Assembly (NCBI GenBank): GCA_945929965.1
Contig: CAMEOT010000013.1
Coordinates: 1 to 64,000, forward strand
Length of the DNA: 64,000 bases
Direction of reading: 5' to 3'
Origin: an uncultured Lachnospiraceae bacterium
Lineage (GTDB): Bacteria; Bacillota; Clostridia; Lachnospirales; Lachnospiraceae
Position numbers and translations under genes: made by a program. Positions within the stretch are counted from its first letter, which is position 1. Every line of letters starts with the position of its first letter. The notes below the pieces were generated by a model, which saw nothing but the letters and a program-made list of their open reading frames with translations, did no database searches and was not told the origin of the DNA. Positions 3,609 through 44,818 of this stretch are shown piece after piece.

Positions 3609-3631
3609 ACAATACCTGAGAGGAGAAACGT

Positions 3632-4570
3632 ATGATCATATACGCATGGATCTTTTGTTTAATATTTATGGGATTTTTGCTCCTTTTCGGTCAGATGACA
3701 TGGATGAAAAAGGTGCAGGAACTATTGCGGCGGACAGAGGAAGGGATGGATCAGGCTTCCCATCTGCGGGCACTGGAAAACAGACACCGGCTGATGGAAC
3801 TTAGGCAGAGAAACAGTATCTGGCGCCGCATGGAAGATATCCTACGATACAGCGGACTGTCGAGAAGATTTCCGGGGTGCACCGCGGAGAAGTGGATCGC
3901 AGGGAATCTCCTTATGTATGCCGGAGTGTTCTGCATAGTGCAGGTGGCCGGCGGAAATGTGACAGTTTCAGTGGCTGTAACGGGGAGCATAGTGGTTATG
4001 GAATGGATGGTCATGAATACCTTACGTTTTTTGGAATTTCGCTCTGTGAACGAGGATCTGTTAAAGTGTCTGAATTTTTTGGGAAATTACAGCCTCACCG
4101 CAGGAGAGATCACCTCCGTATTGGGACAGGTCAGCAAATACATGGAGGAACCGCTGCGAAGCGCAATGGAGGAATGTGCTTATGAAGCCCAGATTACCGG
4201 AGACCACTCCACAGCACTGCTAACGATGGCGGAAAAGGTGGAGCATCCAAAATTCAAAGAACTGGCAAGGAATCTGGAGATCAGCATACGGTACATGGCT
4301 GATCTGACCACACTGGTGGACAGTAGCAGACGCTCCGTGCGGGAATATCTGAGGACGGAGGAAGAACGGAAAGGAATGCTACGGGAGGCAGCAATCAATA
4401 TGGGGCTTCTGGCAGCCATGTCAATATTTGCACTTCTGACGGTGGATCGTCTGATCGATGAATCTGTTTGGAAGATATTGCTTCAAACGCTTCCGGGACA
4501 TCTGGCGGTAGGCAGCTATGTGGGGATCTTTTTCCTGTTCCTGCGCAAGGTGTACGGATTCCGGAGATAA
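3632..4570 (+). CDS. tadB: Tad pilus inner-membrane protein TadB (T2SS F family)
   Basis: This is a 312-residue membrane protein with N-terminal hydrophobic segments near residues 3-20 and 93-130 and two C-terminal helices around 255-310. The central cytoplasmic domain is of GspF/TadB type, with the LRFLEFRSVNEDLLK and EYLRTEEERKGMLREAAIN stretches. The family forms the platform on which the pilus ATPase acts. AGAGGAG lies just before the ATG. It follows tadA by 23 nt and precedes tadC. Confidence 0.8.
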   Translation: MIIYAWIFCLIFMGFLLLFGQMTWMKKVQELLRRTEEGMDQASHLRALENRHRLMELRQRNSIWRRMEDILRYSGLSRRFPGCTAEKWIAGNLLMYAGVFCIVQVAGGNVTVSVAVTGSIVVMEWMVMNTLRFLEFRSVNEDLLKCLNFLGNYSLTAGEITSVLGQVSKYMEEPLRSAMEECAYEAQITGDHSTALLTMAEKVEHPKFKELARNLEISIRYMADLTTLVDSSRRSVREYLRTEEERKGMLREAAINMGLLAAMSIFALLTVDRLIDESVWKILLQTLPGHLAVGSYVGIFFLFLRKVYGFRR

Positions 4571-4617
4571 GAACGCGCCTGAACGAAACTGCAAAAGAGG
4601 AAAAGGAGGAAACAAGA

Positions 4618-5442
4618 TTGAGCTTTCGTACATTATGGATACCGCAGCTGTTGGAGGCGGTGCTTAGCGGAATATTTGTATTCCGACTGGGAATGGGCAC
4701 GACGCCGCAGACAATCGTGCACACATGGGAGGAACTGACCGGGCTGATTCGTCAGAATCAAAAGCTTGGCAGTTGGAGGGAGAAAACAGAAAAAAAGTTG
4801 AGGCGCAATGGCGCAAAGTACCATTACGGGAAAAATATTACCGCCATGAAATATTTTTTGGGAAGAATTCTGCTGGCGTGTGCAGGGGCAGTGGGAATGT
4901 CGGTGATCGGCATCGGATATGCACTGCTTGCAGCGGTACTTTTGTATTATCTGCCGGAGGTACTTATGATATACATAAACGAGTGCGACAACCGGAGCAT
5001 GCTGCCGGAGATCAAACTGATCTATCAGGCGTTGGAGGTGCAGATCCATGCAGGAATCTATGCAACAGATGCCCTGACAGAGTGCTGCCAGAGTGTGAGA
5101 CAGCGGAGACTGCAGCAGGCGCTGATGGAATTGGCCGGGGACCTGGTCATGCAGTCGGATACGTTGACGGCATTATCTGATTTCCAGGAGAAATTCGATA
5201 ATCGTCAGATAGATGCTTTGTGTATTACTCTGATCCAGGCGGGAGAATCCGGACAGGCTGTGGAACTGCTTCAGGACATGGGAGAACAGCTGAAAGATCT
5301 GGAACTGACGGCACTGAGACACCAGAAGAGTGCTCTGGACCGCAGCATTACTTTCTACCAGCTGGGAATGCTCGGTGCGACACTGGGAGTGATCCTGTAT
5401 GCCTGCGTGGGATATATGTTCCGGGCGGCAGTGAAATTCTAA
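4618..5442 (+). CDS. tadC: Tad pilus inner-membrane protein TadC (T2SS F family)
   Basis: This is the second GspF-like platform protein, about 274 residues. It has membrane helices near residues 80-115 and at the C-terminus (GATLGVILYACVGYM), and a helical cytoplasmic domain containing DALCITLIQAGESGQ and the RHQKSALDRS region seen in TadC. The frame stays open further upstream and overlaps tadB. However, a TTG at 4618 sits 8 nt after a strong GGAGG (4605-4609), whereas the upstream ATG at 4468 has no site and would encode a non-family extension. TTG is therefore chosen. Confidence 0.8.
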   Translation: MSFRTLWIPQLLEAVLSGIFVFRLGMGTTPQTIVHTWEELTGLIRQNQKLGSWREKTEKKLRRNGAKYHYGKNITAMKYFLGRILLACAGAVGMSVIGIGYALLAAVLLYYLPEVLMIYINECDNRSMLPEIKLIYQALEVQIHAGIYATDALTECCQSVRQRRLQQALMELAGDLVMQSDTLTALSDFQEKFDNRQIDALCITLIQAGESGQAVELLQDMGEQLKDLELTALRHQKSALDRSITFYQLGMLGATLGVILYACVGYMFRAAVKF

Positions 5443-5486
5443 ACAGACCAAAACAAAGAACACAAAACAAAAAGGAGAAACGACAA

Positions 5487-5708
5487 ATGAAAAATCAGTG
5501 GATGAGAAAGTGGGAACAGATCAGAAAAACAGTAAAGGAACATGCCCTGCGCAGGGAACCGGGGATCGACGGGATCCTGGTGACGGTGGGATTATGCATT
5601 ATTGCACTGCTGTTATGCGTTGTAATGAAAGACAGTCTGACAGCGTTTATACAGACCATTGTGACGGCTATGCAGACGAAAGCTGCGGATATTCTCACGG
5701 GTGTATAA
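5487..5708 (+). CDS. Flp1-like small pilin candidate
   Basis: This 73-residue protein has a basic N-terminal ~30 residues, one hydrophobic helix (GILVTVGLCIIALLLCVVM) and an amphipathic tail ending in KAADILTGV. Size, layout and position directly after tadC match the Flp1-like domain proteins of clostridial Tad operons, which are thought to supply the pilin subunit. A classical G/xxxxEY prepilin cleavage site is not obvious. AAAGGAG lies 8 nt before the ATG. It is likely the most highly translated gene of the operon if it is the major pilin. Confidence 0.65.
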   Translation: MKNQWMRKWEQIRKTVKEHALRREPGIDGILVTVGLCIIALLLCVVMKDSLTAFIQTIVTAMQTKAADILTGV

Positions 5709-5721
5709 GATGGGAGCAGGT

Positions 5722-6087
5722 ATGGCAGGACGAAAAAGGGAACCCGGAAATGTGGGGGAGATACTGGCGATGGGGTTGTGTGTACTGGCGCTTACAGCGG
5801 TGATGTTAAGCTATATGGAGAATGTACAACTGATCGCGAAAAAGGCAGAAGTGGGACAGCTGGCAAGGTGCTATCTGTTGAAAATGGAGACGGTCGGCTA
5901 TCTGACGGCGCCAGATCAGGCGGAACTGAAAGACCGGCTGGAGGTTCTTGGACTTACACAGATTGATTATGACGGCAGTTCCCTGGAACCGGTGGGGTAT
6001 GGCAACGACGTAGTGCTGCAGATCCGAGGGCGGTTGGGAGAAGACTATGAAATATACGAGAAGAGAGTATCTACGGCAAAAAATTAA
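5722..6087 (+). CDS. TadE-like pseudopilin (DUF4320 type)
   Basis: This is a protein of about 121 residues with a GNVGEILAMGLCVLALTAVM segment near its N-terminus (one membrane helix, with GE(I) before it as in prepilin-like signals) and a small extracellular domain. It resembles the DUF4320 proteins found in clostridial Tad loci, which probably play a TadE/F minor-pilin role. The frame opens at GTG 5701 and ATG 5710. The ATG at 5722 is preferred because GGGAG (5712-5716) lies 5 nt upstream. It starts almost on top of the Flp1 stop and overlaps the next gene. Confidence 0.65.
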   Translation: MAGRKREPGNVGEILAMGLCVLALTAVMLSYMENVQLIAKKAEVGQLARCYLLKMETVGYLTAPDQAELKDRLEVLGLTQIDYDGSSLEPVGYGNDVVLQIRGRLGEDYEIYEKRVSTAKN

Positions 6088-6682
6088 GACAAAGATGTGG
6101 GATACAGAACGTGGACAGGTATCCTGGGTGTTTGGACTGTTTCTTCTGCTGTTTTTATCAATTTTATTGTGCATGCAGCTGCAGATCGCTCTGTACAGGG
6201 AATCCGCTATGTATATGGAAGATGCGCTGGCGTTGTCGGGGCTGGCATCCGCAGTAATCGATGTGGAAGAATACGGCATTACGCAGAAAGTGCGGATCAC
6301 GGATCCGAAAGCAGCCTATGAACGGTACTGCCATGCCCTGAAGGAGAATCTGGGACTGAATGATACGTTCTATGCCGGGAACCGGAAGCTGATCTCGGGA
6401 CAGGTCACGGTACAGCAATATATCCTGTACAATGTCGAGGGGGAGCGGGTGGAAGTATGGCAGAAGGGTGCAGACGGACAGATACAGGAATGGGAAGGAA
6501 CACTGGGTGAAGTAAAAGCTCCCGATGGGCAGTACATAGAACACACAGGTGTATACAGTGAGATCACTTATTTTGTAGAAGGATTTATGGGAACTGACAT
6601 GGAGGCACATAAGGGAAAACTTGTAGATGTGGTAAGAGAAAATAACAGGGAGAGGGAAGATGAAATTACAGAAGCCGAATAA
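6047..6682 (+). CDS. TadE/TadF-like pseudopilin, 211 aa
   Basis: An N-terminal cytoplasmic stretch (ERGQVSWVFGLFLLLFLSIL) runs into a single membrane helix near residues 25-45, followed by a ~160-residue extracellular domain with no recognised fold. The ERGQ-helix start is what TadE/F and Archaea-type pilin precursors look like. The ATG at 6047 has GGGAG 7 nt upstream, and the gene overlaps its predecessor by 41 nt and its successor by 23 nt, implying translational coupling. It is most likely a minor pilin, with the assignment based on topology and context. Confidence 0.6.
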   Translation: MKYTRREYLRQKIKTKMWDTERGQVSWVFGLFLLLFLSILLCMQLQIALYRESAMYMEDALALSGLASAVIDVEEYGITQKVRITDPKAAYERYCHALKENLGLNDTFYAGNRKLISGQVTVQQYILYNVEGERVEVWQKGADGQIQEWEGTLGEVKAPDGQYIEHTGVYSEITYFVEGFMGTDMEAHKGKLVDVVRENNREREDEITEAE

Positions 6683-7343
6683 ATGGAATAAAACCATAAA
6701 AAACAGAATATGGAACGGCAGCATTCTGGCAGCCTTTATTGCTGCCGCTGCGGTATTTGCCGTAATGCTTCAGACAGAGAAGAGGACGCTTGCGGAATAC
6801 GAGAAAAAGGAGGTATATGTGGCAACAACGGATATTCCCCGGGGAGAGGAACTGACGCAGGAGAATATCGAAGATTATGTAATGCCTCTGGAGATTGACC
6901 AAAGAATCGTGCCGGGGACGGCAGTGACGGACAGGGAAAGTCTGTATGGCAGAATAACGGTATGTGATATCGGACAGAGCAGCGTTATCACCGGGGAAAT
7001 GACAGAGGGTAAGGAGCAGATTCTGGGAGAAATGACGGAACCGGTGATCGCCGGTTTCCGGGCAGAAGATCTCTACCAGGCAGTGGGAGGTGTCCTGCGT
7101 GCCGGGGACAGAATACATATCTATTGCATCGATAAGGATAAGGACGATTTTTCCGGTGAAAATCCGGGCTGGCAGAATCTGTTCGTACAGCAGGTGTTTG
7201 ATCAGAGCGGCAACATCATTCCCTGTGAGGATACCACTACACCGGCGCAGAGAGTGAATATTTATCTGGACAATAAAAATGTGGAGGAGTTTTACAGGAA
7301 TCTGGCAAAAGGGTCGCTGAGGGTCGTTAAGATCTGCAACTGA
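6660..7343 (+). CDS. cpaB: Flp pilus assembly protein CpaB/RcpC, SAF domain
   Basis: One N-terminal membrane helix (ILAAFIAAAAVFAVML) leads to an SAF domain: VYVATTDIPRGEELTQENIE, VMPLEIDQRIVPG and the DIGQSSVITGEM region around residues 50-115. An RcpC-like domain with RAGDRIHIYC follows. In Tad systems CpaB/RcpC proteins are periplasmic or cell-wall-side stabilisers of the pilus. At 227 residues it is within the short end of the family. GGGAGAGGGAAG precedes the ATG. It is followed by a 76-nt spacer made of short degenerate repeats and then the large secreted protein. Confidence 0.8.
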   Translation: MKLQKPNKWNKTIKNRIWNGSILAAFIAAAAVFAVMLQTEKRTLAEYEKKEVYVATTDIPRGEELTQENIEDYVMPLEIDQRIVPGTAVTDRESLYGRITVCDIGQSSVITGEMTEGKEQILGEMTEPVIAGFRAEDLYQAVGGVLRAGDRIHIYCIDKDKDDFSGENPGWQNLFVQQVFDQSGNIIPCEDTTTPAQRVNIYLDNKNVEEFYRNLAKGSLRVVKICN

Positions 7344-7361
7344 TCCGTCATAGGAAGGACA

Positions 7362-7411
7362 CTGTAAAAAGACCCTGTAAGAAGATGCGTAAGAAGATAC
7401 TGCAAGAAGGA
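7362..7411 (+). repeat. Four degenerate 12-13-bp tandem units before the giant secreted gene
   Basis: Units near 7362, 7375, 7388 and 7400 follow the pattern CTGTAAGAAGAT with one to three changes each. The last unit supplies the AAGAAGGAG ribosome site of the gene at 7420. The array may be a simple slippage product. Confidence 0.5.
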
Positions 7412-7419
7412 GAACTCGC

Positions 7420-10400
7420 ATGACAAAGAAAAAGCGCTGCAGGCTGTGCATTGCTGCTATGCTGGCATTGGGGATCGTACTGTTACTTCCCGTACGAACG
7501 GTACAGGCTTATGAGAAGAAGACCATTTATAACAGCCCTTACGTGTCCTTCAGTCCGGACGGGAAAGCATGGACTACCTGTGCCGGAGAGAAAGGATATC
7601 GTTGGTATGAAGAAAATACGGTCGTATTTACGGGAATGAAATCTTCTCTGAGAAAGCCCGTTGCGGGAGAACATTATTACAGTGTCAGCCGCATGGGAGA
7701 AGTACCGATCGGAGCCTGGAAGGTCTGCTGGCGGAGGGCACAGTGTATTCATAATGCCTATGGGAGGAAACAGGGCTGGCATGGTCTGCGGTTTGGTACG
7801 GCAAAATGTCAGGGATACTATAATTCCGGTTGGAAACCGGTCTGCGCGGATTGTGGGGAATGGATAGAAACGTGGAACATCTATATGAGCAGAGAGGCGG
7901 CAGCGACAATCCACTACATGGAGCTTGGTAGTGAGGAGGCACCGGCGACCTATTATTATCTGTGTCCGCATTGTGCCAACCTGGAGCAGGGAGTGACATT
8001 CCCGGCACACCGATGCAAGAAGATTTCTCCCAATCAGTATAAGGTAATATATGATGCAAATGCAGATCCCGGATCCTGTGTAGGATTTATGGGGGGAAGC
8101 TATCATATGTATGATAACGCGGAAGTTTACGAAGGTGGCGAAGTGACTCCGGTCACCCATCTAACGAAGAACAATTATACCCGTATCGGCTATCTGTTTA
8201 CCGGGTGGAATACCGCACCGGACGGAAGCGGCGATTCCTACGCGGATGAGGCCGAGATATGTAATCTTGCCACAGCGGATCACCGGGACAGGACGACCTG
8301 GACCGACAGAGACAACGGATCGGTCACACTGTACGCCCAGTGGACTCCATGTGAGAGTACATTGTGTATCGATGCCGGCGGTGGTAAATATCTGGGTAAA
8401 AACATTTTGGAGATTACGGATGTATACGGTAAAAAATACCGCCTGCATACGGAAGGGATTCAGCCTCCGACCGGATCTACACTGACTTTTGAGACAAACG
8501 GTGGAACGGCAGTACCTTCCATCCGGGGAACACAGCATTTTGAAGAATGGACGCGTGTGCTTCCCTTCCTGGGAGAACTGGAGGGAAATGTCTATACCTA
8601 CTGTGCCACGGAAGGAAATAGGGATACTGTAAAGGCGCTGTACCGGAGGGATTGCGTGACTCTGCCGGGGACAGTCAGAGAAGGCTGGTCTTTCGGAGGC
8701 TGGTATTATGATAAAGCATTTACATTGCCGGCGGGGGCGGCAGGGGAAGAGATTATTCCTTCTGCTGACTGCACACTGTATGCCCAGTGGGTCGATCTGA
8801 AGCTAGAGTCTGCAGACAATTATAAGGCAAATGGTGGGAAGGGTGCAGTGGATCTTAGCTGGTCACAGACGGACCAGAAGAACAAGACCTATCTGTTGTT
8901 CCAAAAGAAGGAGAACGGCACTTGGACCCGCATTAATTCCGCTGAGGATATCAGCAGCATGACACGGGTCGCGATAACGGAGAATTACAGCGGCAGTGCC
9001 GAAGAATATACCATCCCTTACACGGGGCTGTATACGCTTACGGCAGAGGGGGCCCAGGGACAGGATTTTGAATCCTGCACAGGAGGATACGGTGGGCGCG
9101 TGTCCGGAACCTTCTGGCTGCAAAAGGGAGAGAAGATTACATGTTTCCCGGGAGGACAGGATGGCGGTAACGGCGGAGGAACTGCTTCTGCTTACGGGAA
9201 TGGAGGCGGTATGACATCTGTGACATCAGACCGCAAGGGAATCCTGCTCATTGCCGGTGGCGGCGGAGGCGCTTCCCCGGCGGGAGACGGAAAAAGCGGT
9301 GGCAGTGCGGAGAGCGTGCGGGAAGAAAGCAGCAGTGAGGACGGAATGGCGGGTGGTGGTGCCGGATACCGGGGAGGAAGTGCTGGAGAGAAGATTGTAC
9401 ACTCCCATACGAATCAATGTTACAGGGAGGCAGCCTATACCCCGGCACTTGGCAGCTGGGAGCACTATGTGACCGGCCATGATGATTATTGTGAGACTTA
9501 CACTGCCACCAGGGCTTACAGCCATACCAAGGACGACGATCCTTATCATATTATCCGTGCAGGCTGGTCCCGGTATTACTGGGATGAGGGGAATCGGTGG
9601 AATACGAGAGGATACCCGGGAATCAACACTAACGGTAATACGAAATTAAATATTTCGGTCTATGCGGACAGCTGGGGATCCTCCTGTAATTTTTCTCTGA
9701 ATAAGTCACAATATACGATTTTGAACCAGGACGGAAAAGTAATCCTGTCCGGCAGCTTCCGTGATGCGGTTTATTCCATGAGCGGGTCTTCCAGCTCTGC
9801 ATGGGAGAATCCGGACGGTTCCTGGGGCGGTGCACCGGGCGGCAGTAAGTTCGCCGGTACCTTTCATTTTACCCTGCCGGAGGGGACGACGAAGATCTTC
9901 GTAGACCTGAAGTTTTCCCATGACTGTTCGGATGCATGGCTCACTTCGGAGATCACGGGCTTAAGCTTTTCCGGCGGAAGAATGCTGACCTGCGGTTATA
10001 CGGAGGGACAGGTACTTTCCTCGAAACCGGCTTACGGAGGAAGTAATTATGTGAATACGGCGTATGCCCGGATGTACGAAAGCGAAAGCGGCGTACACCG
10101 GGGAGACGGAAGCGTACAGATACAGTCCGAGGCAATAGGTTATCAGGAAGAGTGTCATATGGAGGGCGTTGTGGCGACAGACCTGGCAGCACCGGATCGG
10201 ATTCCTGCGGAAATGACCATGGAAGCACTGGATCATAAGCGGGTACAGATTACCTGGCAGCAGCCAAAAGATAACGGAACCTGGTACTATCATAAGGCAG
10301 AATCCTATCTGACCGGGAGTACTAAAAGACTTTGTACTTCTAATATTACCGGGAATCTGTTGGTCAGCGGCATTGCAGGTTATTATTTCATAATAGACGA

Positions 10401-35255: not shown

Positions 35256-35262
35256 AATAAAG

Positions 35263-35292
35263 CTCCCCGGGAATTAACCCGGGGAGTTTTTT
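35263..35292. terminator. Bidirectional terminator between rpoC and the pseudopilus operon
   Basis: CTCCCCGGG, loop AATTAA, CCCGGGGAG, then TTTTTT on the plus strand. On the minus strand the stem is followed by CTTTATTTTA, so it can also stop the convergent operon. Confidence 0.9.
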
Positions 35293-35322: not shown

Positions 35323-35739
35323 TTATTGTAATTCATCGACATTCAGTACCTGCCAGGCGGTAATGCGGTAGAAAGTATCCTCATCGGTCTGTGGATAGAG
35401 AATCTCGATAGTGACCTGCAAGGACTGCAGATCGGAGATGGGGATCACGTAGGACTTCCCATGGCCCACAGAAGCGAAATAGGCATCTTCACTGTCTGAG
35501 GAAGCATAGATGCGTTGTAATGTTTTGTCCATGCCGGCTAACGACTGTTCCGCCTGATTGCAGGCGTCATAATAAGCGGTGGTACGTTCCAGTACCCGGT
35601 TGCTTAACTTACTGTCGGCATTGGCACTGACGATGGACAGTACCGCAAAGGATACCAGACAAAGGATCACGAATACCAGCAGGATAGAAGCAGATCCGAT
35701 ATTCATGCCGAATTGTTTTTTCTTAGAAGCATTACTCAT
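35323..35739 (-). CDS. Small membrane-anchored pilus-locus protein
   Basis: This is a protein of about 138 residues with a basic start, one membrane helix (ASILLVFVILCLVSFAVLSI) and a ~95-residue extracellular domain with LSNRVLERTTAYYDACNQAE and YRITAWQVLNVDE. The frame continues 25 codons further upstream, but ATG at 35739 has AAAGGA at good spacing and removes a non-family extension. It overlaps the preceding gene by 8 nt. It resembles minor pilin or GspK/PilX-like accessory components by topology only. It is the last gene of the nine-gene operon. Confidence 0.55.
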   Translation of the reverse strand: MSNASKKKQFGMNIGSASILLVFVILCLVSFAVLSIVSANADSKLSNRVLERTTAYYDACNQAEQSLAGMDKTLQRIYASSDSEDAYFASVGHGKSYVIPISDLQSLQVTIEILYPQTDEDTFYRITAWQVLNVDELQ

Positions 35740-36184
35740 GTAAGTCTTTCCTTTCTGCGGCGTGGTGCATGACAGAGAGCGTATAAATGGGAGAATCCGG
35801 GGAAGAAATCTCAATGATACTGATCTGAGCTTCCATAATACCGGTTCCGGGATCCGGTATATGTGTCAGTTCTGCCGAAAAGCCGGCGTTGTCACCGGGG
35901 GAACACAGATTCCATTGGCTGTCGAAGTACAGCGTCATGGTATCTTCTTCTGTCTGTTGTGAAGGGGTAAACAGGTCGTGCATGGCGCCCAGATCGCCCT
36001 CCGAAGCCAGATAAGATTCCGCCAGATTCTGTGCCCAGATAACGGCGTGATTTTTGTTGACTGTCTGTGTGCTCAGCAGATGCGATTTGGCGAACAACTG
36101 AATGCAGACAGCACTGGCAAGGGAGAAAAACAGGATCGCTATGATCATTTCCATTAAAAATAAACTGGATCTGGAGTGCTTCAT
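35732..36184 (-). CDS. Type IV pilin-like pseudopilin
   Basis: This 150-residue protein begins with a short basic leader and FLMEMIIAILFFSLASAVCI, a pilin-type hydrophobic helix carrying Glu at the +5-like position. The processing residue before it is not a clear glycine. The globular part contains WAQNLAESYLASEGDL and ends LSVMHHAAERKDLHE. It probably forms part of a pseudopilus. AAAGGA precedes the ATG, and it is coupled to the next gene by overlap. Confidence 0.65.
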   Translation of the reverse strand: MKHSRSSLFLMEMIIAILFFSLASAVCIQLFAKSHLLSTQTVNKNHAVIWAQNLAESYLASEGDLGAMHDLFTPSQQTEEDTMTLYFDSQWNLCSPGDNAGFSAELTHIPDPGTGIMEAQISIIEISSPDSPIYTLSVMHHAAERKDLHE

Positions 36185-36219
36185 AATAAATTCCGAATCC
36201 TTTCCATCATTCTATTCTT

Positions 36220-36723
36220 CTATTCCGTAGTACTGCAATGTACATGAATGTAAAAGGTATGGGTCTCCCGGGAGGGTGTCTGTAAACAGACCCGGATCAG
36301 ATCATTGCCTGCATAGGAAAAGGTAAGATCCGTCAGCTCCAAAATATCCGTACCGGCGGGCAAAAGCTGTCCGCCGAGGGAAGTTCCCTGTCGCATGAAG
36401 AGCTCTTTCAGATGACCCTCGTAATAATAGAGATAAGTGCAGTAAGTATCTTCATCGATCTTTGAAAGCATACAGAGTGCCGGAACATCCTCCAATGTAG
36501 TTAAGGAGATGCTATCTGCTGTGTCACTTTGACGCACCTTTTCCATAATATAGGATACTGCAGTCCGGCTGTCATAGTTCACACTCATATCTTCCACCGT
36601 ATGCTGGTAGACGTCTGCTCCGATAGTGACGAGAGCCAGGGCGGAGACGGCAAATACACCGAACAGCGCCAAAACGAACAAGATATCCACAATAAAATGT
36701 TTTTCCTGTGTCTTATGGTTCAT
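36220..36723 (-). CDS. DUF4860-like pseudopilin candidate
   Basis: This 167-residue protein has a charged N-terminus (NHKTQEKHFIVDILFVLALF), one membrane helix and an extracellular domain with YDSRTAVSYIMEKVRQSD. That segment resembles GspJ-type minor pseudopilins and DUF4860 proteins. AAAGGAG lies upstream. Position within the pilus operon supports a minor pseudopilin role, but function is not established. Confidence 0.55.
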   Translation of the reverse strand: MNHKTQEKHFIVDILFVLALFGVFAVSALALVTIGADVYQHTVEDMSVNYDSRTAVSYIMEKVRQSDTADSISLTTLEDVPALCMLSKIDEDTYCTYLYYYEGHLKELFMRQGTSLGGQLLPAGTDILELTDLTFSYAGNDLIRVCLQTPSRETHTFYIHVHCSTTE

Positions 36724-36737
36724 ATGTCAGAACTCCT

Positions 36738-37076
36738 TTAACGGGCACCGGTTCTGCGGAGTACCGTGACCTCCGGCAGAAGGTTGCTGCCATAGTATTC
36801 GTAGTCAATGAAGAAGCTGTCCTCATCATATAACAATCCGTAATGCTGCTCCAGATATTCCAGGGATGGAGGATAACTGCCCTCTACAGCGTAACACTGG
36901 GAAATGCTTCGTTCCAGGGCTGTCTCCAGACTTTCCTGTTGTTTGTTTAAGGTAGATTCGCTGACCGATCCGATGCCCTGCAGAAAAAGAACAAATAACA
37001 CTATGAATGCCAGGATCGGAAGCAGGTAGATCAGCTTCTGCCAGAGAGACCTGTTTTTTTGTTCAAAACGATTCAT
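36738..37076 (-). CDS. Small single-helix pilus-locus protein
   Basis: This 112-residue protein has helix LIYLLPILAFIVLFVLFL near residues 16-33. An amphipathic helix (QQESLETALERSISQCYAVE) and GSYPPSLEYLEQHYGL follow, a pattern seen in the first part of GspG/PulG pseudopilins where a helix precedes a PxSLxxLxxxG-like motif. It lacks the classical N-terminal methylation site. It sits 12 nt after the GspF gene and 14 nt before the next gene. Its role is inferred from context. Confidence 0.5.
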   Translation of the reverse strand: MNRFEQKNRSLWQKLIYLLPILAFIVLFVLFLQGIGSVSESTLNKQQESLETALERSISQCYAVEGSYPPSLEYLEQHYGLLYDEDSFFIDYEYYGSNLLPEVTVLRRTGAR

Positions 37077-37087
37077 AAGCAGCGCTC

Positions 37088-38140
37088 CTATCCGATACTG
37101 GTCATAATACCCATCAGGGGCAGGATGACCGATAACAGAATCAATCCGACAATAACGGAGAGAATGATGACCAGTGTAGGCTCTAAGACAGCGATGATGG
37201 ACTGTAGTTTACGGTTGGTATTTTCTTCATAGCGGTCGGCAATCTTTTTGAGCACGATATCTACGTTACCGCTGCGGAAACCAACGGATACCATCTGGGA
37301 ATAGAGATGATTGAAAATACCGGCACCGGTCAGAGCTTCGGCAAAATTAGCCCCGGCATTTATGGCTTCCTTGCAGCTTAGAATCTTTTGTTTCATTTTC
37401 TCATTGCCTACCAGGGAAGCGACCATGTCTAGACTGGAGTAGGTATCCATGCCGCTGCTTAAGGTCAGTGCCATACCGCTGGCGAAACGCTCACAGGCAA
37501 CACTCTCATAAAAATTTCTTGTCAGAGGTAACCAGTTTAAGAACCGGGCGGTGACACGTTTACCGGTCTGAGTCCTGGTGGCGAACAGATATAACAGAAG
37601 TAATATACATAAAATACTTACAAATACAAAGGAATAGCGGTTCAGATGATTGCCCACCCGCAAAAGAGAAGCGGCAAATCCGGTCATCTCACTGCCCAGT
37701 TCCACATAGACCTGCTCAAAGATCGGCATAACGCGGCTGACCAGTACCACAATGACGGCAGCCATCATGGCAATCATAATAAAAGGATAGGTCACGGCAT
37801 CCCGGATGCTGTGAGAGATGGCCTCTTCCTTCTCGTAATAATCCGCCAGGGAAAGCATACATACGTCCAAATTACCGGATTCTTCTCCCAATGCGATCAT
37901 GCGTAGGCAGTAATCCGGAAAAACATTTGTAGATTCCAATGCTTTGTGAAAGCTTTCTCCCTGTTGGCAGACGGTGAGGATCTCGTCAAAGATCGCTTTT
38001 CCCTCCGGGGATCCGGCATCGCTCTGTAAGATCGCCATACCCTCCATAGGGGGAATTCCCGCCTGGAACAGCATGGCTGCCTGGCTGCAGAAAGAAGCGA
38101 TTTCTTCGTTGGACAGTAATTTTTTCTCCGTAGTCTTCAT
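37088..38140 (-). CDS. Type II secretion F/PilC-type platform protein
   Basis: This 350-residue inner-membrane protein has the duplicated GspF layout. The first F domain includes FCSQAAMLFQAGIPPMEGM and DYCLRMIALGEESGNLDVCM. Membrane helices lie near 122-140 and 172-190. The second F domain (CERFASGMALTLSSGMDTYS) is followed by SVGFRSGNVDIVLKKIADRY and a last helix. It is the assembly platform of T4P/T2SS-like machines and needs a GspE/PilB ATPase, which is absent from this operon. AAGGGA precedes the ATG. Confidence 0.88.
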   Translation of the reverse strand: MKTTEKKLLSNEEIASFCSQAAMLFQAGIPPMEGMAILQSDAGSPEGKAIFDEILTVCQQGESFHKALESTNVFPDYCLRMIALGEESGNLDVCMLSLADYYEKEEAISHSIRDAVTYPFIMIAMMAAVIVVLVSRVMPIFEQVYVELGSEMTGFAASLLRVGNHLNRYSFVFVSILCILLLLYLFATRTQTGKRVTARFLNWLPLTRNFYESVACERFASGMALTLSSGMDTYSSLDMVASLVGNEKMKQKILSCKEAINAGANFAEALTGAGIFNHLYSQMVSVGFRSGNVDIVLKKIADRYEENTNRKLQSIIAVLEPTLVIILSVIVGLILLSVILPLMGIMTSIG

Positions 38141-38159
38141 TTCGATTTGTTCCCTTTCA

Positions 38160-39188
38160 CTAATACATTTTCTGAAGGATATAATTGGTGCCGTCTCCGA
38201 TGAACTTCTTCAGAGTCTTGTCATCGGTGTTGGCACCGAAGGTGGGATCCACCAGTGTCCATACATTGCCGTCGAATTCGATAATGCCGTTCAGCCATCC
38301 CGTATCCGCAGTATATACGCTGATCCAGGCATGGTAGGCATCCTGTGCATAACCCACTTCCAGTCTGGTGGGGATCCGTTGGCTTCTGAGCATGCTCGCC
38401 ATAACGGCGGCATAGTCCAGACAGATACCGGTTCCGGAAGTCAGGATAGAATCCACATCGGAAGTATATCCGGTGGGGGGATCGGAAGCTTTCGCATAAT
38501 CATAAGTGATATTTTGTGTGATATAGTCGTATACCCGGGTGATCACTTCCAGGTCCGAGGAAGCGCCCTCGGCAAGTTCCCGGCCCTTCGCCACGACTTT
38601 GCTGTCCGCATTGAAATTCACATACTGGTTCGGATAGAGGAAAGGACCGAAAGTATCGGTGATCTGTACCTCCAGATCTGCATACAGGCAGGTGGCATAG
38701 TTCGTACCGGAGATATTCTCATAGATCGTCACATCATAATAGCCGTCCCCGGAGGACAGAGGAAAGGTCTCATAGCCGTTCCCGTGCAGGTCGTAGGTAT
38801 AGACTACTGTGTCGGGACCGGTGATCCGCAGCTTGACTTTCGGGCAAGTGCCGGTATAACTGGCACAGATATATCCGTCCGACATATGGGAATAGTCGAT
38901 GACTGCCACATCGTTGGAGGTGACCTGACTGCCATCCGCTTTTGGCACGAGACATACCGGAGTGGCATCCCGCAGAGGTTTTGCAGGGGCGGTGCTTTCT
39001 GTCTCCGTGGAAGTTGTGCCGGTATCCGCAGAAGCGGGAACTGCGGGGGACTGGTCATCGTAAGTGTCCGTCGCAGGGGCAGCCGCAGACAGAGAGTCAG
39101 AAGCAGAACCACAGGCACATAACCCGGCCATGATACAATATGTAATTAATAAAATGCGCAGCCGCGCAAAGGATCCGGGTATTTGCAT
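38160..39188 (-). CDS. Transglutaminase-like lipoprotein
   Basis: This 342-residue protein has a lipoprotein-type signal (IMAGLCACGS, Cys near residue 26) and a Ser/Thr/Pro linker to ~75. A beta-rich domain and a transglutaminase-like cysteine protease-fold domain follow. The catalytic triad is visible as Cys in TGICLDYAAVMASML (~254), His in AYHAWIS (~288) and Asp in LVDPTFG (~313). It would act outside the membrane, cutting, crosslinking or modifying a peptide bond. A substrate among the operon pseudopilins is plausible but unproven. It lies between the anti-sigma and GspF genes. Confidence 0.8.
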   Translation of the reverse strand: MQIPGSFARLRILLITYCIMAGLCACGSASDSLSAAAPATDTYDDQSPAVPASADTGTTSTETESTAPAKPLRDATPVCLVPKADGSQVTSNDVAVIDYSHMSDGYICASYTGTCPKVKLRITGPDTVVYTYDLHGNGYETFPLSSGDGYYDVTIYENISGTNYATCLYADLEVQITDTFGPFLYPNQYVNFNADSKVVAKGRELAEGASSDLEVITRVYDYITQNITYDYAKASDPPTGYTSDVDSILTSGTGICLDYAAVMASMLRSQRIPTRLEVGYAQDAYHAWISVYTADTGWLNGIIEFDGNVWTLVDPTFGANTDDKTLKKFIGDGTNYILQKMY

Positions 39189-39209
39189 AGAAACATCAAC
39201 ATCCTGTTG

Positions 39210-39722
39210 TTATTGTGTCATTCCTGTGACATTGTCGGGGGTAAAGAGGAGATGTATCGTCTCGCCGCCACTCACGGGAACATAAATATTGGCTTCCTCT
39301 GTAAGGAAAGGAAAACTGATCACGCCCCTGGCACTGTCCACGGAGAGCGGCTCGATGATCTCACCGGACAGCGTCTCCATAAAAGCCTCGTCATAGAGAA
39401 TGTTATCTCCGGTAAACTTAAGGCTTAAAACATTATTCTCCACATAATCCAGAGTAAGCTCCGCGGGAGCGGGGGCAAACACTTTCCCGTTAAATTCGGA
39501 GAGCGGAACGATGATTAAGGGCGACAGAAAAGTCAGCACAAAGATCACAGTGGTAGCCACGATCAGACGGTTATAGGAAGCTGCATTGATTTTTTTACGA
39601 AGCACCAGCTTGTCAAAAGGAATGGTATTGACTGGCTGGTTACAGGTGGACAGGATATTCTGCAGAGCATTGTTTGCGGTGTTCATGTCCAACTCATAAC
39701 GGTTCTTTTTATGAAAAAACAT
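39210..39722 (-). CDS. Probable anti-sigma factor, single membrane helix
   Basis: This 170-residue protein has a cytoplasmic ~50-residue N-terminus, a membrane helix (LIVATTVIFVLTFLSPLIIV) and a C-terminal extracellular beta-type domain ending SGGETIHLLFTPDNVTGMTQ. It follows the ECF sigma gene by 16 nt and has the topology of anti-sigma factors that hold ECF sigma at the membrane. There is no ZAS zinc motif, so the family is not certain. Confidence 0.55.
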   Translation of the reverse strand: MFFHKKNRYELDMNTANNALQNILSTCNQPVNTIPFDKLVLRKKINAASYNRLIVATTVIFVLTFLSPLIIVPLSEFNGKVFAPAPAELTLDYVENNVLSLKFTGDNILYDEAFMETLSGEIIEPLSVDSARGVISFPFLTEEANIYVPVSGGETIHLLFTPDNVTGMTQ

Positions 39723-39738
39723 AACTGTATTATCCTTT

Positions 39739-40302
39739 CTATCCTCTCATGCTGGCTTTCAGCTGCTCCTGCCCGGAGGCGATATAGCGTTTTACGCTGC
39801 TGCGGCTGATCTCCATGGCGGCAGCGATCTCCTCAAGCTTCATGTCGTTATAGTATCGCATGATCAGGACCTGCTTCTCATTGAAAGGAAGCTGTTCTAA
39901 GGCGTCCGTCAGCCGGGAATATTCATCCTTCTGCTGGTAATGCAGTTCCGGATTGGTATCCGGGTGAGGATCCTGTACAATATCGAGAATCTCCTGATTT
40001 AAGGTCTGACAGTCGTTCTGCGGCCGCTGCTTCTTGGTCATATCGTAGCAGACATGGAAGCAGATACGATTCAGCCAGGCGATAAAAACAGTAGGATCAT
40101 TCAGTTTTCCGATGTTTTTCAGAGCCAGTATGTAGACCTCCTGCATGGCATCTTGAGCGAGAAAGTCATCTCTCAGATAATGTCTGGCATAGTTGTATAC
40201 TTTATTATAGGTAAGAGCATACAATTCTGCGAAGGCATCCGAGTCGCTGTGCTGGGCACGGATCACAAGACCGGCAATGTAAGAAATATTCAAATCTTTC
40301 AT
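39739..40302 (-). CDS. ECF-type RNA polymerase sigma factor
   Basis: This 187-residue protein has region 2 (SDAFAELYALTYNKVYNYAR and LAQDAMQEVYILALKNIGKL), a WLNRICFHVCYD stretch and region 4 with LPFNEKQVLIMRYYNDMKLE followed by the HTH EEIAAAMEISRSSVKRYI. It directs RNA polymerase to a regulon that probably includes its own operon. It lies directly between a GGDEF gene and a probable anti-sigma gene. Confidence 0.9.
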   Translation of the reverse strand: MKDLNISYIAGLVIRAQHSDSDAFAELYALTYNKVYNYARHYLRDDFLAQDAMQEVYILALKNIGKLNDPTVFIAWLNRICFHVCYDMTKKQRPQNDCQTLNQEILDIVQDPHPDTNPELHYQQKDEYSRLTDALEQLPFNEKQVLIMRYYNDMKLEEIAAAMEISRSSVKRYIASGQEQLKASMRG

Positions 40303-40322
40303 GCGTTCGTCTCACTGTCTGG

Positions 40323-41036
40323 TTAACGGGTTCCTTGAGAGTGGAGCTTATTGTATGTCTCGGTAAGCAGAGTGGAGAAATACTCTGCATGTGCTTCTTC
40401 ATTTAAAATATATGCGTACTTGATCTGAATGGGCGCATTGCTGTGTTCCTCGTTGTATTCCTTCAGCTGCTGCGCCAGACTTTCGATAAAATAGTCCATG
40501 GTATCATGGGAACCGTGATTGACGATCATTAAGAATTCGTTACCGCCGTTACGTCCCACCACACCGAAGGCATCACCGACACTCTCTAAGATACCGGAGA
40601 AATCCTTCAACATCTGGTCGCCCACGACATGTCCCATGGTCTGATTGATCTCCTTTAAGTTGGTGATGGTGACCATATAGCAGGCTACATGCTCCAGAGA
40701 TTCCGGGGAGTCATAAGTCTCAAACACGACATCCAGTCCGTGTCTGTTGGGGATGCCGGTCAGATGATCCAGGAAAGCTGCGCGGTTCAGCGCATGACTT
40801 TCTTCGGCGAAGGTGCGCAATTTATAGAAATCATATAATAACCATACCAGATTAAATAAAGCAAGAATCCAGGAGAGTGTGCATAAGATAAAAAGTGTCC
40901 GGTTCTCAAACAGCTGTGTGCCGAGTGCGGGATGCAGGGTCAGCACCAGAACATACGCAGCTTCCAACAGAAGCAGAAGGATTAACTGCACGGTTTTGGT
41001 GTTACGGAAGGTTTTTACAAATTTTTTATTTCGCAT
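40323..41036 (-). CDS. Membrane GGDEF-domain protein with variant active site
   Basis: This 237-residue protein has two N-terminal membrane helices (LILLLLLEAAYVLVLTLHPA, LFILCTLSWILALFNLVWLL) with a very short outside loop, then a GGDEF domain with FLDHLTGIPNRHGLD. The signature is GGNEF rather than GGDEF, and the metal-binding Asp of the first strand is replaced (VTITNLKEINQ), so cyclase activity is doubtful. It may act as a c-di-GMP or GTP sensor. It is first in the operon. A TATACT (complement of 41083-41088) upstream could be its -10, without a clear -35. Confidence 0.8.
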   Translation of the reverse strand: MRNKKFVKTFRNTKTVQLILLLLLEAAYVLVLTLHPALGTQLFENRTLFILCTLSWILALFNLVWLLYDFYKLRTFAEESHALNRAAFLDHLTGIPNRHGLDVVFETYDSPESLEHVACYMVTITNLKEINQTMGHVVGDQMLKDFSGILESVGDAFGVVGRNGGNEFLMIVNHGSHDTMDYFIESLAQQLKEYNEEHSNAPIQIKYAYILNEEAHAEYFSTLLTETYNKLHSQGTR

Positions 41037-41546: not shown

Positions 41547-41566
41547 AAGTGATAGGAGAGGAAGAT

Positions 41567-44500
41567 ATGAAGAAAAAATTATTCAAAAGAATCTTAACAA
41601 TCTGTATGTGCGCTACTATGCTGGTAGAGACAGTGAACGTCAGCACACTTACCGTAAGAGCAAGCGAGGAAAGCACAGCTGTGTCTGCCATCACGCAGGA
41701 CTCCGATCTCAAGGTTGCAGTGGAAAACGGCGAAGTGGCGGACAAGGCAGCTTACGATGTAGCCCAGGCAGCCCAGAAGGCAGCGGTAGCAGCGGAGAAT
41801 GCGAAGGACGCGGCAGTTAATCTTGGAAAAAAAGCAGCAGATGCTGTCTTGGCCAGTCCCGCTCCGGAAGCTACCGAGGACCCGTCTGTTACTCCGGAAC
41901 CCACACCGGCATTAAAAGAAGAGATTGAAAAAGAGATCAGCGAAGCGGAGACGGCAGTAGCCGACTCCAATCAGAAAGTAGAAGCAGAGTCCAAGAATCT
42001 GGAGAACATTGCAACCGAGGCACAGAATAAGACCGCGGAAGAAGCGCAGAAAGCCCAGGATGCAGCAACTAAAGCCCAGGATGCTGCAGATCAGGCAGAG
42101 GCTCTGAAATCACAGATTGAAAATGCAGGCCGTGCGGATTCCAATCTGGAGGATGTGCTGGATGCCGCAAAGAAAGCTGCGGAGGATGCGCAGGCAGCAG
42201 CAGATCAGGCAAAGCAGGCATACGATAATGCAAAGGATACATTGGATACGGCACAGAAAGCCTATGATGAGGCAAAGGCACAGGCGGAAGCAGATATCGA
42301 AGCCGGTATCGAAAATGCAGACAAAGAACTGGCAGAGGCTGAGGTAGCACTTGCAGCGGCAGAAGCAGAAGTAGTTAAGGCAGAGGATGCTTACAAGACC
42401 GCTACCGACAGCAATGAGATCGCACAGAAGACAGCAGAGGCTGCAAAAGAAGCAGCGGATCAGGCGGGAATTGCTGCCGAAAAATCCGACGAAGCAAAAG
42501 CGGCTGCTGACGTAGTGAATGCGAAAAAAGAAGCAAAAGAGTCAAATAACGCACAGCTGGAAAAGCAGAAGTCCGAGATTCAGGAACAGCAGGATGCCCT
42601 GAGAAGCGAGATCACCGCCAAAGAAGCACAGATCGCAGCCAAGGAAGCAGAGATCAAAGCCGTAGAGAAAGCAATTGATGATCTGGGCGTAAGAAGATAT
42701 CTGGTATGGTCCGATGAATATAAAAAAGCACAGGAACTGAAAGATCAGATTAACAATTTAGAAAATGATATCGACACCCTGAAGGGTGACATCAATATTG
42801 CGAAGGACACTATTTCCCTGAAAGATACCGAGATTGCCGCAAAGGATGCACAGATTGCCGAGAATAATACATACATTGCAGGTATTGTGGCATCACAGAA
42901 GGTCGTAGAAGATCTGGTAGCTGATAATAATACCCAGATCACTTATCTGGACAAGGAAAAACAGGATGAGTTCAATACGCTGCTGGACGAATTGAAGGAA
43001 TCTACCCGAAAGTATGAAGATGCGAAGGAACTTCGGGAAGAGTATCAGGATGCCATTGACAGAAGCAATGTTGGACTGATCGAATGGTTCCGCAAGGTAC
43101 ACAAAGAGTTGCTCATTGAGGCCAAGAATGACAATGCGAAGATCGAGATGGACTGGGAGCATCTGGAACTGAAATACACCAACGACGGACTGACCCTGTT
43201 ACTGGGCAAGAACAAGAATAACGAGCAGGTATTACTGACCTGGGAAAACAATAAACTGACCGCAACGCTGGTAGATGAGCATGAATTCGCTGCATACTCC
43301 ACCGCTTTTGATAAGGTGGCAGCAGCACAGGCAGCAACAAAGGCAGCAGACGCCGCAACCGCAGCAGCGAAGGCAGAACAGGCAGAGAAAGACGCACTGG
43401 ATCAGTACAACGCTGCAAAAGAAGCTCTGGAGGCAGCAAAGAAGAGACTGGAAGCGGCCAGAAATGCTAAACTGAATGATTTGCAGCTGGATGCAGCACG
43501 GAAGGCATTGGAAACAGCTAAAAAAAATGTAGCGGATGCCAAGGAGGCTTACGAGGACGCACAGAGTGCAGCAGATGAAGCAAAAAAGGATTATGAAGAT
43601 GCTCAAAAGGATTTCGCTGAGAAACCGGTAACGGCATACTTCTATATCCTGAACAGAGGACTGACACAGCCCTCCGAGGTAAGCTCTTATCCTTCCTCAA
43701 ATTACAGCAAGGCTCGTCCCGGACAGTTGAAAAAGGGTGAAAACAACAGCTATCTTGATCAGTATGCAAGAGGCAGGGGAATCAAGGATACGGATCTGAC
43801 ACCTTACATCGAAAAGGCACCAACTGCGGCAGACTTCGGACTGACTCTGAAGGAAGGCGAATATATCAAATGGTATGTAATTAAAACAGAGAGTGATAAT
43901 TCGATCCATGTAGACGGCATTATCATGAACCAGAAGTTTAATGTGACAGTACATTATCTGTATGAGGATGAAACCGGTAACACGGTAAAGGTAGCAGAAG
44001 ATTTCGTAGGAACCTACGGACTGGGTGAAGAATATCACATTACCACTCCGAGTGCAGTCATTGACGGATTTAGTTTCACTGCTAAAAACGCAACGGAGGC
44101 GGAGATTAGCGGTACCGCGACTGCCGACAGAGAAGTAACCGTATGGTACAGTAAGGAAGAAGGCGTACCTATTACCGTGAACTACTACCGCGGCAGCGTG
44201 AACGGAACACTCCTGCACACAGAGACCCGTAACATCGGAAAGTCTCAGGCAGCTGATTATCACGCAACGCTCACAGTAGATTCTCTGAATGCATGGAGAC
44301 CCGGTGATTGCGAGAACGGTGTTCTGGCAGGATATGAGAAGACTGAAGACGGATATGTAGCAAATATTATATACCAACCGATCATCGTAACTCCTTCCGA
44401 AACTGAACCCACCGGTGGTGAAGGTGGCGGAGAGTCCGGAGAAGATGGTACGACTACCGGAACCGTAACGGCACCGGAAGCAGCTGCTCCCGCAGACAAC

Positions 44501-44818
44501 ACAACCGTAGCTACCGTACAGCAGGTAGCAGGTGCTAGACAGCAGCCCGTTGCTCAGACAGTGATCGAAGAGGAGACCACTCCTTTGGCACCTGCTGCGA
44601 CAGAAGAACCGGAGCAGGGAATTACAGCAACAACGAATAATAATGTAGTCAGCATTGAGGATGAGGCGGCACCTCTGGCAGCATCTGCAAACTGTTGGAT
44701 CCACTGGCTGATCCTGTTGCTGACAGTCGTATATACTGCATATGAATTGATCCGTTGCATCAACAGAAACAAAAAGATCAATGAACTTCGCGGTGAAGCA
44801 CGCCAGACAGAGGTGTAA
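41567..44818 (+). CDS. Large coiled-coil surface protein with MucBP-like domains and PLAA anchor
   Basis: This 1083-residue protein starts with a signal peptide (KRILTICMCATMLVETVNVS). Two long Ala/Glu/Lys/Gln coiled-coil blocks span about 40-320 and 330-480, and a further alanine-rich coil lies near 590-690. Between the coils a small domain contains WEHLELKYTNDGLTLLLGKN. After ~690 come two MucBP-like beta domains (NVTVHYLYEDETGNTVKV; PITVNYYRGSVNGTLLHTET). A Gly/Glu/Thr-rich linker is followed by IEDEAAPLAAS, one membrane helix (WLILLLTVVYTAYELIRCI) and a basic tail NKKINELRGE. There is no LPXTG. The stalk-plus-binding-head layout suggests an adhesin. The frame opens at 41549, but AGGAGAGGA favours ATG 41567. 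Confidence 0.8.
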   Translation: MKKKLFKRILTICMCATMLVETVNVSTLTVRASEESTAVSAITQDSDLKVAVENGEVADKAAYDVAQAAQKAAVAAENAKDAAVNLGKKAADAVLASPAPEATEDPSVTPEPTPALKEEIEKEISEAETAVADSNQKVEAESKNLENIATEAQNKTAEEAQKAQDAATKAQDAADQAEALKSQIENAGRADSNLEDVLDAAKKAAEDAQAAADQAKQAYDNAKDTLDTAQKAYDEAKAQAEADIEAGIENADKELAEAEVALAAAEAEVVKAEDAYKTATDSNEIAQKTAEAAKEAADQAGIAAEKSDEAKAAADVVNAKKEAKESNNAQLEKQKSEIQEQQDALRSEITAKEAQIAAKEAEIKAVEKAIDDLGVRRYLVWSDEYKKAQELKDQINNLENDIDTLKGDINIAKDTISLKDTEIAAKDAQIAENNTYIAGIVASQKVVEDLVADNNTQITYLDKEKQDEFNTLLDELKESTRKYEDAKELREEYQDAIDRSNVGLIEWFRKVHKELLIEAKNDNAKIEMDWEHLELKYTNDGLTLLLGKNKNNEQVLLTWENNKLTATLVDEHEFAAYSTAFDKVAAAQAATKAADAATAAAKAEQAEKDALDQYNAAKEALEAAKKRLEAARNAKLNDLQLDAARKALETAKKNVADAKEAYEDAQSAADEAKKDYEDAQKDFAEKPVTAYFYILNRGLTQPSEVSSYPSSNYSKARPGQLKKGENNSYLDQYARGRGIKDTDLTPYIEKAPTAADFGLTLKEGEYIKWYVIKTESDNSIHVDGIIMNQKFNVTVHYLYEDETGNTVKVAEDFVGTYGLGEEYHITTPSAVIDGFSFTAKNATEAEISGTATADREVTVWYSKEEGVPITVNYYRGSVNGTLLHTETRNIGKSQAADYHATLTVDSLNAWRPGDCENGVLAGYEKTEDGYVANIIYQPIIVTPSETEPTGGEGGGESGEDGTTTGTVTAPEAAAPADNTTVATVQQVAGARQQPVAQTVIEEETTPLAPAATEEPEQGITATTNNNVVSIEDEAAPLAASANCWIHWLILLLTVVYTAYELIRCINRNKKINELRGEARQTEV

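Follow-up and report, generated by a model that had tools for sequence, protein, structure and literature searches.

The stretch analysed here (the window) comprises positions 1 to 64,000 of contig CAMEOT010000013.1 from an uncultured Lachnospiraceae bacterium (assembly GCA_945929965.1; genome 3.04 Mb, 99.9% complete), which we refer to as contig C13. At positions 35323-41036 it carries nine minus-strand genes that appear to encode components of a type IV filament-like machine, those in the membrane and those outside the cell. The genes are separated by intergenic gaps of 11-35 nt, with a single 8-nt overlap, which holds if pil6 starts at ATG 35739 and not at TTG 35814; given this start, the compact arrangement described in an earlier note on this DNA is confirmed. 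Listed from the first gene, the features are:

40323..41036, minus strand: membrane protein with a degenerate GGDEF domain (GGNEF; PF00990, E=2.9e-19)
39739..40302, minus strand: extracytoplasmic function (ECF) sigma factor (Pfam Sigma70_r2/r4 and NCBIfam TIGR02937)
39210..39722, minus strand: one-helix membrane protein, candidate anti-sigma factor (no significant Pfam match; putative function)
38160..39188, minus strand: transglutaminase-like lipoprotein, TGL (PF01841, E=5.5e-20; lipobox read in the sequence)
37088..38140, minus strand: GspF/PilC/ComGB-type platform protein, 350 aa (PF00482, E=2.1e-49, two stretches)
36738..37076, minus strand: pil3, candidate major pilin, 112 aa (type IV pilin-like predicted fold)
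36220..36723, minus strand: DUF4860 protein (PF16152, Pfam 5e-27), putative minor pseudopilin with a GspJ-like predicted fold
35732..36184, minus strand: pil5, putative minor pilin with Glu5, probably GspI-like by place and motif
35323..35739, minus strand: pil6, pilin-like protein, candidate tip subunit lacking Glu5, probably GspK-like
35259..35290, no strand assigned: two-way terminator-like site between pil6 and rpoC

The rpoC gene lies beyond the terminator-like site, on the strand opposite to the operon. Clear Pfam matches bear out the earlier assignments of the GspF protein (2e-49), the transglutaminase core (6e-20), the ECF sigma factor and the GGDEF domain (3e-19), and no significant Pfam match was obtained for pil3, pil5, pil6 or the anti-sigma candidate. 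The operon thus possesses the GspF/PilC platform, a core component of type IV filaments. This 350-aa protein lacks the N-terminal extension found in the 409-aa PilC of the genome's own type IV pilus, to which it is 25% identical in an alignment beginning at PilC residue 69. NCBIfam ComGB aligns with it over nearly the full length, at a score below the cut-off, and the GspF protein of congener G304 is 94% identical to that of the window. Genes for an ATPase or a peptidase are absent from the nine.

The operon is common in the family and its gene order is conserved across families. DUF4860 was found in 100 of 299 sampled genomes of the Lachnospiraceae; in a sample of the phylum it lay above the cut-off in 13 of 398 genomes, 11 of them outside the family (in genome G650 it fell below the cut-off, and this locus was left out of those fetched). 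The loci scored, 114 from 113 genomes, comprised all 100 carriers together with same-genus and same-order loci; L125 of genome G334, which has a TGL relative without the operon, was excluded. The order TGL-GspF-pil3-DUF4860-pil5-pil6-PilT is present at 65 of the 101 family loci, and the same order minus PilT at 18, while the remaining 18 have at least one member missing, TGL displaced, or the locus cut by a contig end. Outside the family, GspF, four pilins and PilT are encoded at all 11 fetched loci and TGL at nine of them. GGDEF and ECF genes stand upstream of the operon in 20 of the 100 carriers, and at the scored loci relatives of the candidate anti-sigma factor sit between the ECF and transglutaminase genes.

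As this gene order indicates, the motorless machine pictured in the earlier note has to be abandoned: the operon family has a motor, a PilT-type ATPase that ends the operon of most relatives, directly after pil6, and a machine without any ATPase was therefore rejected. A same-strand ATPase gene adjoins the pilin genes in 79 of the 100 carriers, is absent in 19 (including G095, where it is inverted and about 1 kb off) and was not scorable in two. The linked ATPases belong to the PilT family, and no extension ATPase of the PilB/GspE/ComGA/TadA type was found in the operon. Their Walker A Gly and Lys, Walker B Glu and last His of the His box are kept in 86 of 86 proteins. We built a tree from 103 PilT proteins, with exact duplicates dropped and a PilB outgroup (bootstrap not settled). 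The 44 operon ATPases in it cluster together (100/100) and are separate from canonical PilT. The PilT of the window's genome belongs to a group of 18 (97/96), which comprises PilTs of the same genus and 10 from operon-bearing genomes that have neither PilB nor PilD. Loci L187-L190 from same-genus genomes (G302:C65, G301:C17, G300:C3 and G307:C60) form a further PilT-like group, separate in this tree from both the canonical and the operon types.

The distribution of canonical PilT was examined on a tree of the platform proteins, a quick tree without bootstrap covering 108 of the 114 loci. Loci without a platform frame of at least 250 aa were dropped, as was L103, the second DUF4860 locus of G149, which lacks the ATPase that the other G149 locus has. 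Two further loci were left unlabelled because of a contig end, G095 was recoded as ATPase-bearing, and the PilB labels of same-genus rows are our own reading of the search results. On this tree, presence of the operon ATPase gene changes once or twice. Among the 24 ATPase-less rows, 13 have both PilB and canonical PilT, 10 PilT only and one neither; canonical pilT is therefore found elsewhere in 23 of the 24, and in 10 of the 11 that have no PilB. Within this lineage, 8 changes in PilB compare with a single change in PilT. Among the 82 ATPase-bearing rows, 47 have neither protein and 23 have both; PilB alone occurs in 12 and PilT alone in none, the last count being valid at the threshold used for canonical PilT (at least 440 bits), which misses some PilTs beside PilB. 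In 14 independent pairs of ATPase-bearing rows, PilT follows PilB 7.8 times on average and the opposite never occurs. A comparison that ignores kinship, for which the tree counts are the fairer form, concerned the 168 genomes without PilB and PilD: a strong PilT match (best E below 1e-80; 183 genomes, against 180 by the curated cut-off) was present in 55 of 56 carriers and in 7 of 112 non-carriers. These seven PilT-only non-carriers are G001, G008, G022, G143, G173, G251 and G261; some of them may hold a DUF4860 protein too diverged for detection. The rpoC gene lies within 5 kb of the operon at 16 loci, 15 of them without the operon ATPase and one (G241) with it.

Carriage of the operon is independent of PilB and PilD. 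We scored PilB by its N-domain (PF05157) and PilD by its N-domain in the same 299 genomes. Counted as carriers with and without the domain, then non-carriers with and without it, the figures were 41/59/82/117 for PilB (odds ratio 0.99) and 38/62/73/126 for PilD (odds ratio 1.06), while the odds ratio between PilB and PilD was 108. The earlier note had asked whether PilB is consistently missing from the family; its N-domain was not found in 59 of the 100 carriers (that of PilD in 62), but carriage does not depend on it. Neither domain was found in 56 of the 100 carriers, or in 36 of the 72 carriers that are at least 95% complete. An ATPase and a PilD encoded elsewhere, which as fixed partners of the operon would have contradicted that note, do exist in the window's genome, but with 56 carriers showing neither they are not fixed partners, and for the same reason we rejected the operon as part of a standard type IV pilus. 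Matches to A24 peptidases occurred in 41 of 41 genomes (those 36, G208 and four congeners), most of them in short frames of a size that we take to be typical of TadV. A partner acting in trans, whether PilB of the genome or Tad-type ATPases, might still serve the operon.

The earlier statement that neither a motor nor a prepilin peptidase is present is true of the operon only, not of the genome. On contig C3, an ordinary type IV pilus locus encodes PilB (565 aa), PilC (409 aa), a pilin and PilD (251 aa), followed by proteins that length and gene order suggest to be PilM-like, PilO-like and minor pilins. This is the standard pilus locus of the genome, so the view that the present operon is not such a locus was correct. 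Canonical PilT (350 aa) is encoded on contig C16 in the cluster lepA-hemW-HD-pilT-comM-dprA (L021, 3633-8686). The position of pilT between the HD-domain gene and comM-dprA is kept in several relatives, which points to a possible link between PilT and DNA uptake. At 19 canonical pilT loci of carriers with ATPase-less or unscorable operons (own genome excluded), lepA and hemW were present in 16 and comM and dprA in 13; in G267, G213 and G319 none of the four genes lies beside pilT in the stretch examined. The genes tadA and tadV had been named as the only candidates for an ATPase and a peptidase in the window. A TadA-like match does exist (C13:2961-3455), but tadV could not be confirmed, the profile search giving no A24 peptidase match on contig C13. 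Positions 2961-5397 resemble a Tad-type locus, with the TadA-like ATPase and two half-platform proteins.

The four pilin-like proteins of the earlier note stand in part as pilins proper: two are pilins by predicted fold, and pil5 and pil6 are pilin-like as judged by the N-terminus. Searches with the sequences against solved structures returned weak matches for pil3 (best E 1.1, a type IV pilin) and pil5 (best E 0.13, geopilin domain 1), and unrelated best matches for DUF4860. The identity of pil3 and DUF4860 is told by fold comparison: the models of these proteins, the two of the four subunits that were modelled, have the long N-terminal helix and head of type IV pilins, with a type IV pilin-like fold in pil3 and a GspJ-like one in DUF4860. 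A profile-profile comparison of DUF4860 with pil5 indicated no relationship (probability 6). The prepilin cut site has been lost from pil3 and DUF4860; it is relaxed in pil5 and kept in pil6, whereas 4 of 4 pilins of the C3 locus carry the motif. Glu5 of pil5 is present in 122 of 122 sequences; in pil6 the -1 column is Gly in 122 of 123 and position +5 is hydrophobic in 123 of 123. Locus L296 (genome G543, 4258-10236) is a remote variant of the operon with a PilD gene of its own, the only one seen beside the operon. Its DUF4860 and pil5 proteins bear prepilin motifs, the pil5 relative matching N_methyl (PF07963, 3.7e-6), and this locus offers a natural comparison for the lost pilin processing.

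TGL was correctly recognized in the earlier note as a transglutaminase-like lipoprotein (PF01841 match and lipobox). Its Cys, His and Asp triad is invariant in 99 of 99 proteins, a feature that places it in the transglutaminase-like superfamily, and TGL might crosslink pilins. The GGDEF protein was likewise recognized correctly as to its domain, but its motif is the degenerate GGNEF and not the GG(D/E)EF of active diguanylate cyclases, and control by cyclic di-GMP is unsupported. Asn in place of the third residue disfavours cyclase activity, and it occupies this position in 26 of 26 upstream copies, that of the window included; ordinary cyclase activity of the protein is thus unlikely, and control via an active cyclase was rejected. 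The GGNEF proteins form a subfamily of GGDEF-like membrane proteins upstream of the operon. The ECF sigma factor and the one-helix protein are likely to be a sigma/anti-sigma pair. A shared promoter upstream of 41036, another suggestion of the earlier note, was not recovered: an ECF-type AAC/CGT pattern gave three scattered matches in 27 stretches upstream of the first gene and none in the window, and the number of sigma-70-like sites, 14, was close to the mean of 10.4 in shuffled sequences. Divergently from the operon, positions 41549-44818 (plus strand) encode a 1089-aa coiled-coil protein, likely a surface protein, which has a MucBP match below the cut-off (E 0.0016) and is hydrophobic over a stretch close to its C-terminus.

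The gene set and its order, the two predicted pilin folds and the pattern in which PilT is absent or retained are computed results. We propose that the product is probably a short pseudopilus powered by PilT and resembling those of the type II secretion system (T2SS) and the Com system. The GspF platform would carry pil3 as the major pilin, DUF4860 as a GspJ-like minor subunit, pil5 as a minor subunit with Glu5 and pil6 as the tip. The motor would be a PilT-type ATPase, a dedicated one encoded after pil6 in most relatives; in the lineage of the window, from which this gene is absent, canonical PilT (here encoded on C16) may take over. By pushing and pulling on the platform, PilT hexamers would drive the presumably short filament into and back out of the cell wall, with pil3 and DUF4860 possibly working with the leader uncut. 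A single motor of this type is plausible because MSHA (mannose-sensitive haemagglutinin) pilus extension in Vibrio cholerae requires PilT (PMC9815625), and one ATPase powers both Tad extension and retraction (PMC11300603). TGL would reside on the outside of the membrane and may process or anchor something that the pseudopilus handles, and the putative sigma/anti-sigma pair might turn the operon on. Secretion or remodelling at the cell wall, or DNA uptake, are possible tasks. More tentatively, and with somewhat less than even confidence, we suggest that the operon represents a distinct branch of type IV filaments with a PilT-type protein as sole motor and with uncut leaders in pil3 and the GspJ-like pilin, whose ancestral locus contained PilD and whose cut sites faded after PilD was lost.

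Several observations weigh against the PilT-powered pseudopilus. PilB and PilD are present in the window's own genome and could serve the operon; the conserved Gly at -1 of pil6, together with the A24 peptidases found in every genome searched for them, leaves processing possible. The absence of the operon ATPase has few origins (the one or two changes noted above), which makes the independent-pairs test powerless there. Genome G137 has neither the operon ATPase nor PilT (it is 81% complete), and G096 combines an operon ATPase with a second, distant PilT at 421.6 bits, among the matches listed (to about 420 bits). TGL was not found in place in 15 of the 100 genomes, some of these cases being due to contig ends.

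An accessory role, in which the extra platform and minor pilins would use PilB and PilD of C3 in the service of the normal type IV pilus, is in our view unlikely. Its components (PilB, PilC, pilins and PilD) exist in the genome, and prepilin peptidases can be shared between systems (PMC6668835), but carriage follows neither PilB nor PilD although these two strongly co-track, more than half of the carriers show neither, and pil3 and DUF4860 do not bear the cut motif of the C3 pilins. It seems similarly improbable that the operon encodes a DNA-uptake pseudopilus, a ComG counterpart retracted by PilT. The proximity of comM and dprA to canonical pilT at 13 of the 19 loci described above agrees with such a role, but both genes are widespread, and we know of no place for a transglutaminase in DNA uptake. 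The ATPase, the 350-aa platform and the four pilins do resemble the eight-part Com pilus (PMC10790768, PMC10191384), yet in that system extension is powered by the ATPase ComGA, and ComC serves as the peptidase (PMC10191384); the linked ATPases of the present operon are PilT-type, and only L296 has a PilD gene.

The earlier idea of a motorless machine whose pilins are crosslinked or trimmed by the transglutaminase draws on the intact Cys-His-Asp triad beside pilin genes. We regard it as very unlikely, given that the operon family has a motor, that the chemistry is not readable from the triad, and that proteins with the transglutaminase fold commonly act as proteases or as other amidases. A relic in decay, with an ancient type IV pilus locus shedding its motor, cut sites and function, is hardly credible: the window's operon is without the ATPase and the prepilin motifs are weakened, but Glu5 of pil5, the Gly of pil6, the TGL triad and the motor residues are conserved almost without exception (122/122, 122/123, 99/99 and 86/86, respectively), and the gene order is kept across families.

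A 2023 review lists components common to all type IV filament systems: a pilin, a prepilin peptidase, an extension ATPase and a platform (PMC10191384). Roughly half of the operon's carriers retain it although the searches used found no N-domain of PilB or PilD in them, and 55 of these 56 have PilT, which departs from this universal set. The operon thus poses the questions of whether PilT can both push and pull without PilB, and whether a pilin can work with its leader attached. The type IVa and IVb pili, the MSH pilus, T2SS, Com, Tad and archaeal forms have been described (Denise et al. PMC6668835; PMC10191384), and the present operon type is not among the forms in the available parts of these two papers. 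Imam et al. 2011 (PMC3244431) reported Gram-positive pil operons with pilT, most such bacteria also having a second, pilT-less operon; the main text of that paper does not contain the word 'transglutaminase', and its accessible part describes no PilB-less operon. Our literature search, whose scope excluded most subscription papers and all preprints, found no description of the operon and no paper for 'DUF4860'.

Comparison with known systems shows what is shared and what is particular to the operon. With the T2SS pseudopilus (GspFGHIJK with GspE and GspO) it has in common the platform, a minor subunit that is GspJ-like by predicted fold, a minor subunit with Glu5 and a candidate tip without it. 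It differs in that the linked motor is PilT-like and not GspE, no peptidase gene belongs to the operon (with the exception of L296), a transglutaminase lipoprotein is added, and the nine genes include no GspE, GspC, GspL, GspM or secretin (for the secretin, this result covers the nine genes and not the rest of the genome). The Com pilus (ComGA-GG and ComC) shares the minimal set, with a ComGB-sized platform and no PilMNO among the nine genes, but has a ComGA-type ATPase instead of a PilT-type one, five pilins instead of four, and ComC; in the operon, moreover, two pilins have lost the cut motif. With type IVa pili that possess PilT, the operon shares a PilT family motor and a PilC-type platform, and the window's lineage keeps canonical PilT. 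It differs from them in having no PilB or PilMNO family among the nine genes, and PilT is kept in PilB-less carriers of this lineage (10 of 11). The MSHA pilus has different pilins, a different host and its own extension ATPase. It resembles the operon in having a locus without its own prepilin peptidase (PMC6668835) and in the involvement of PilT in extension, as described in Vibrio cholerae (PMC9815625). The operon is therefore a variant of the known type IV filament machinery, and one that is new by the literature searched.

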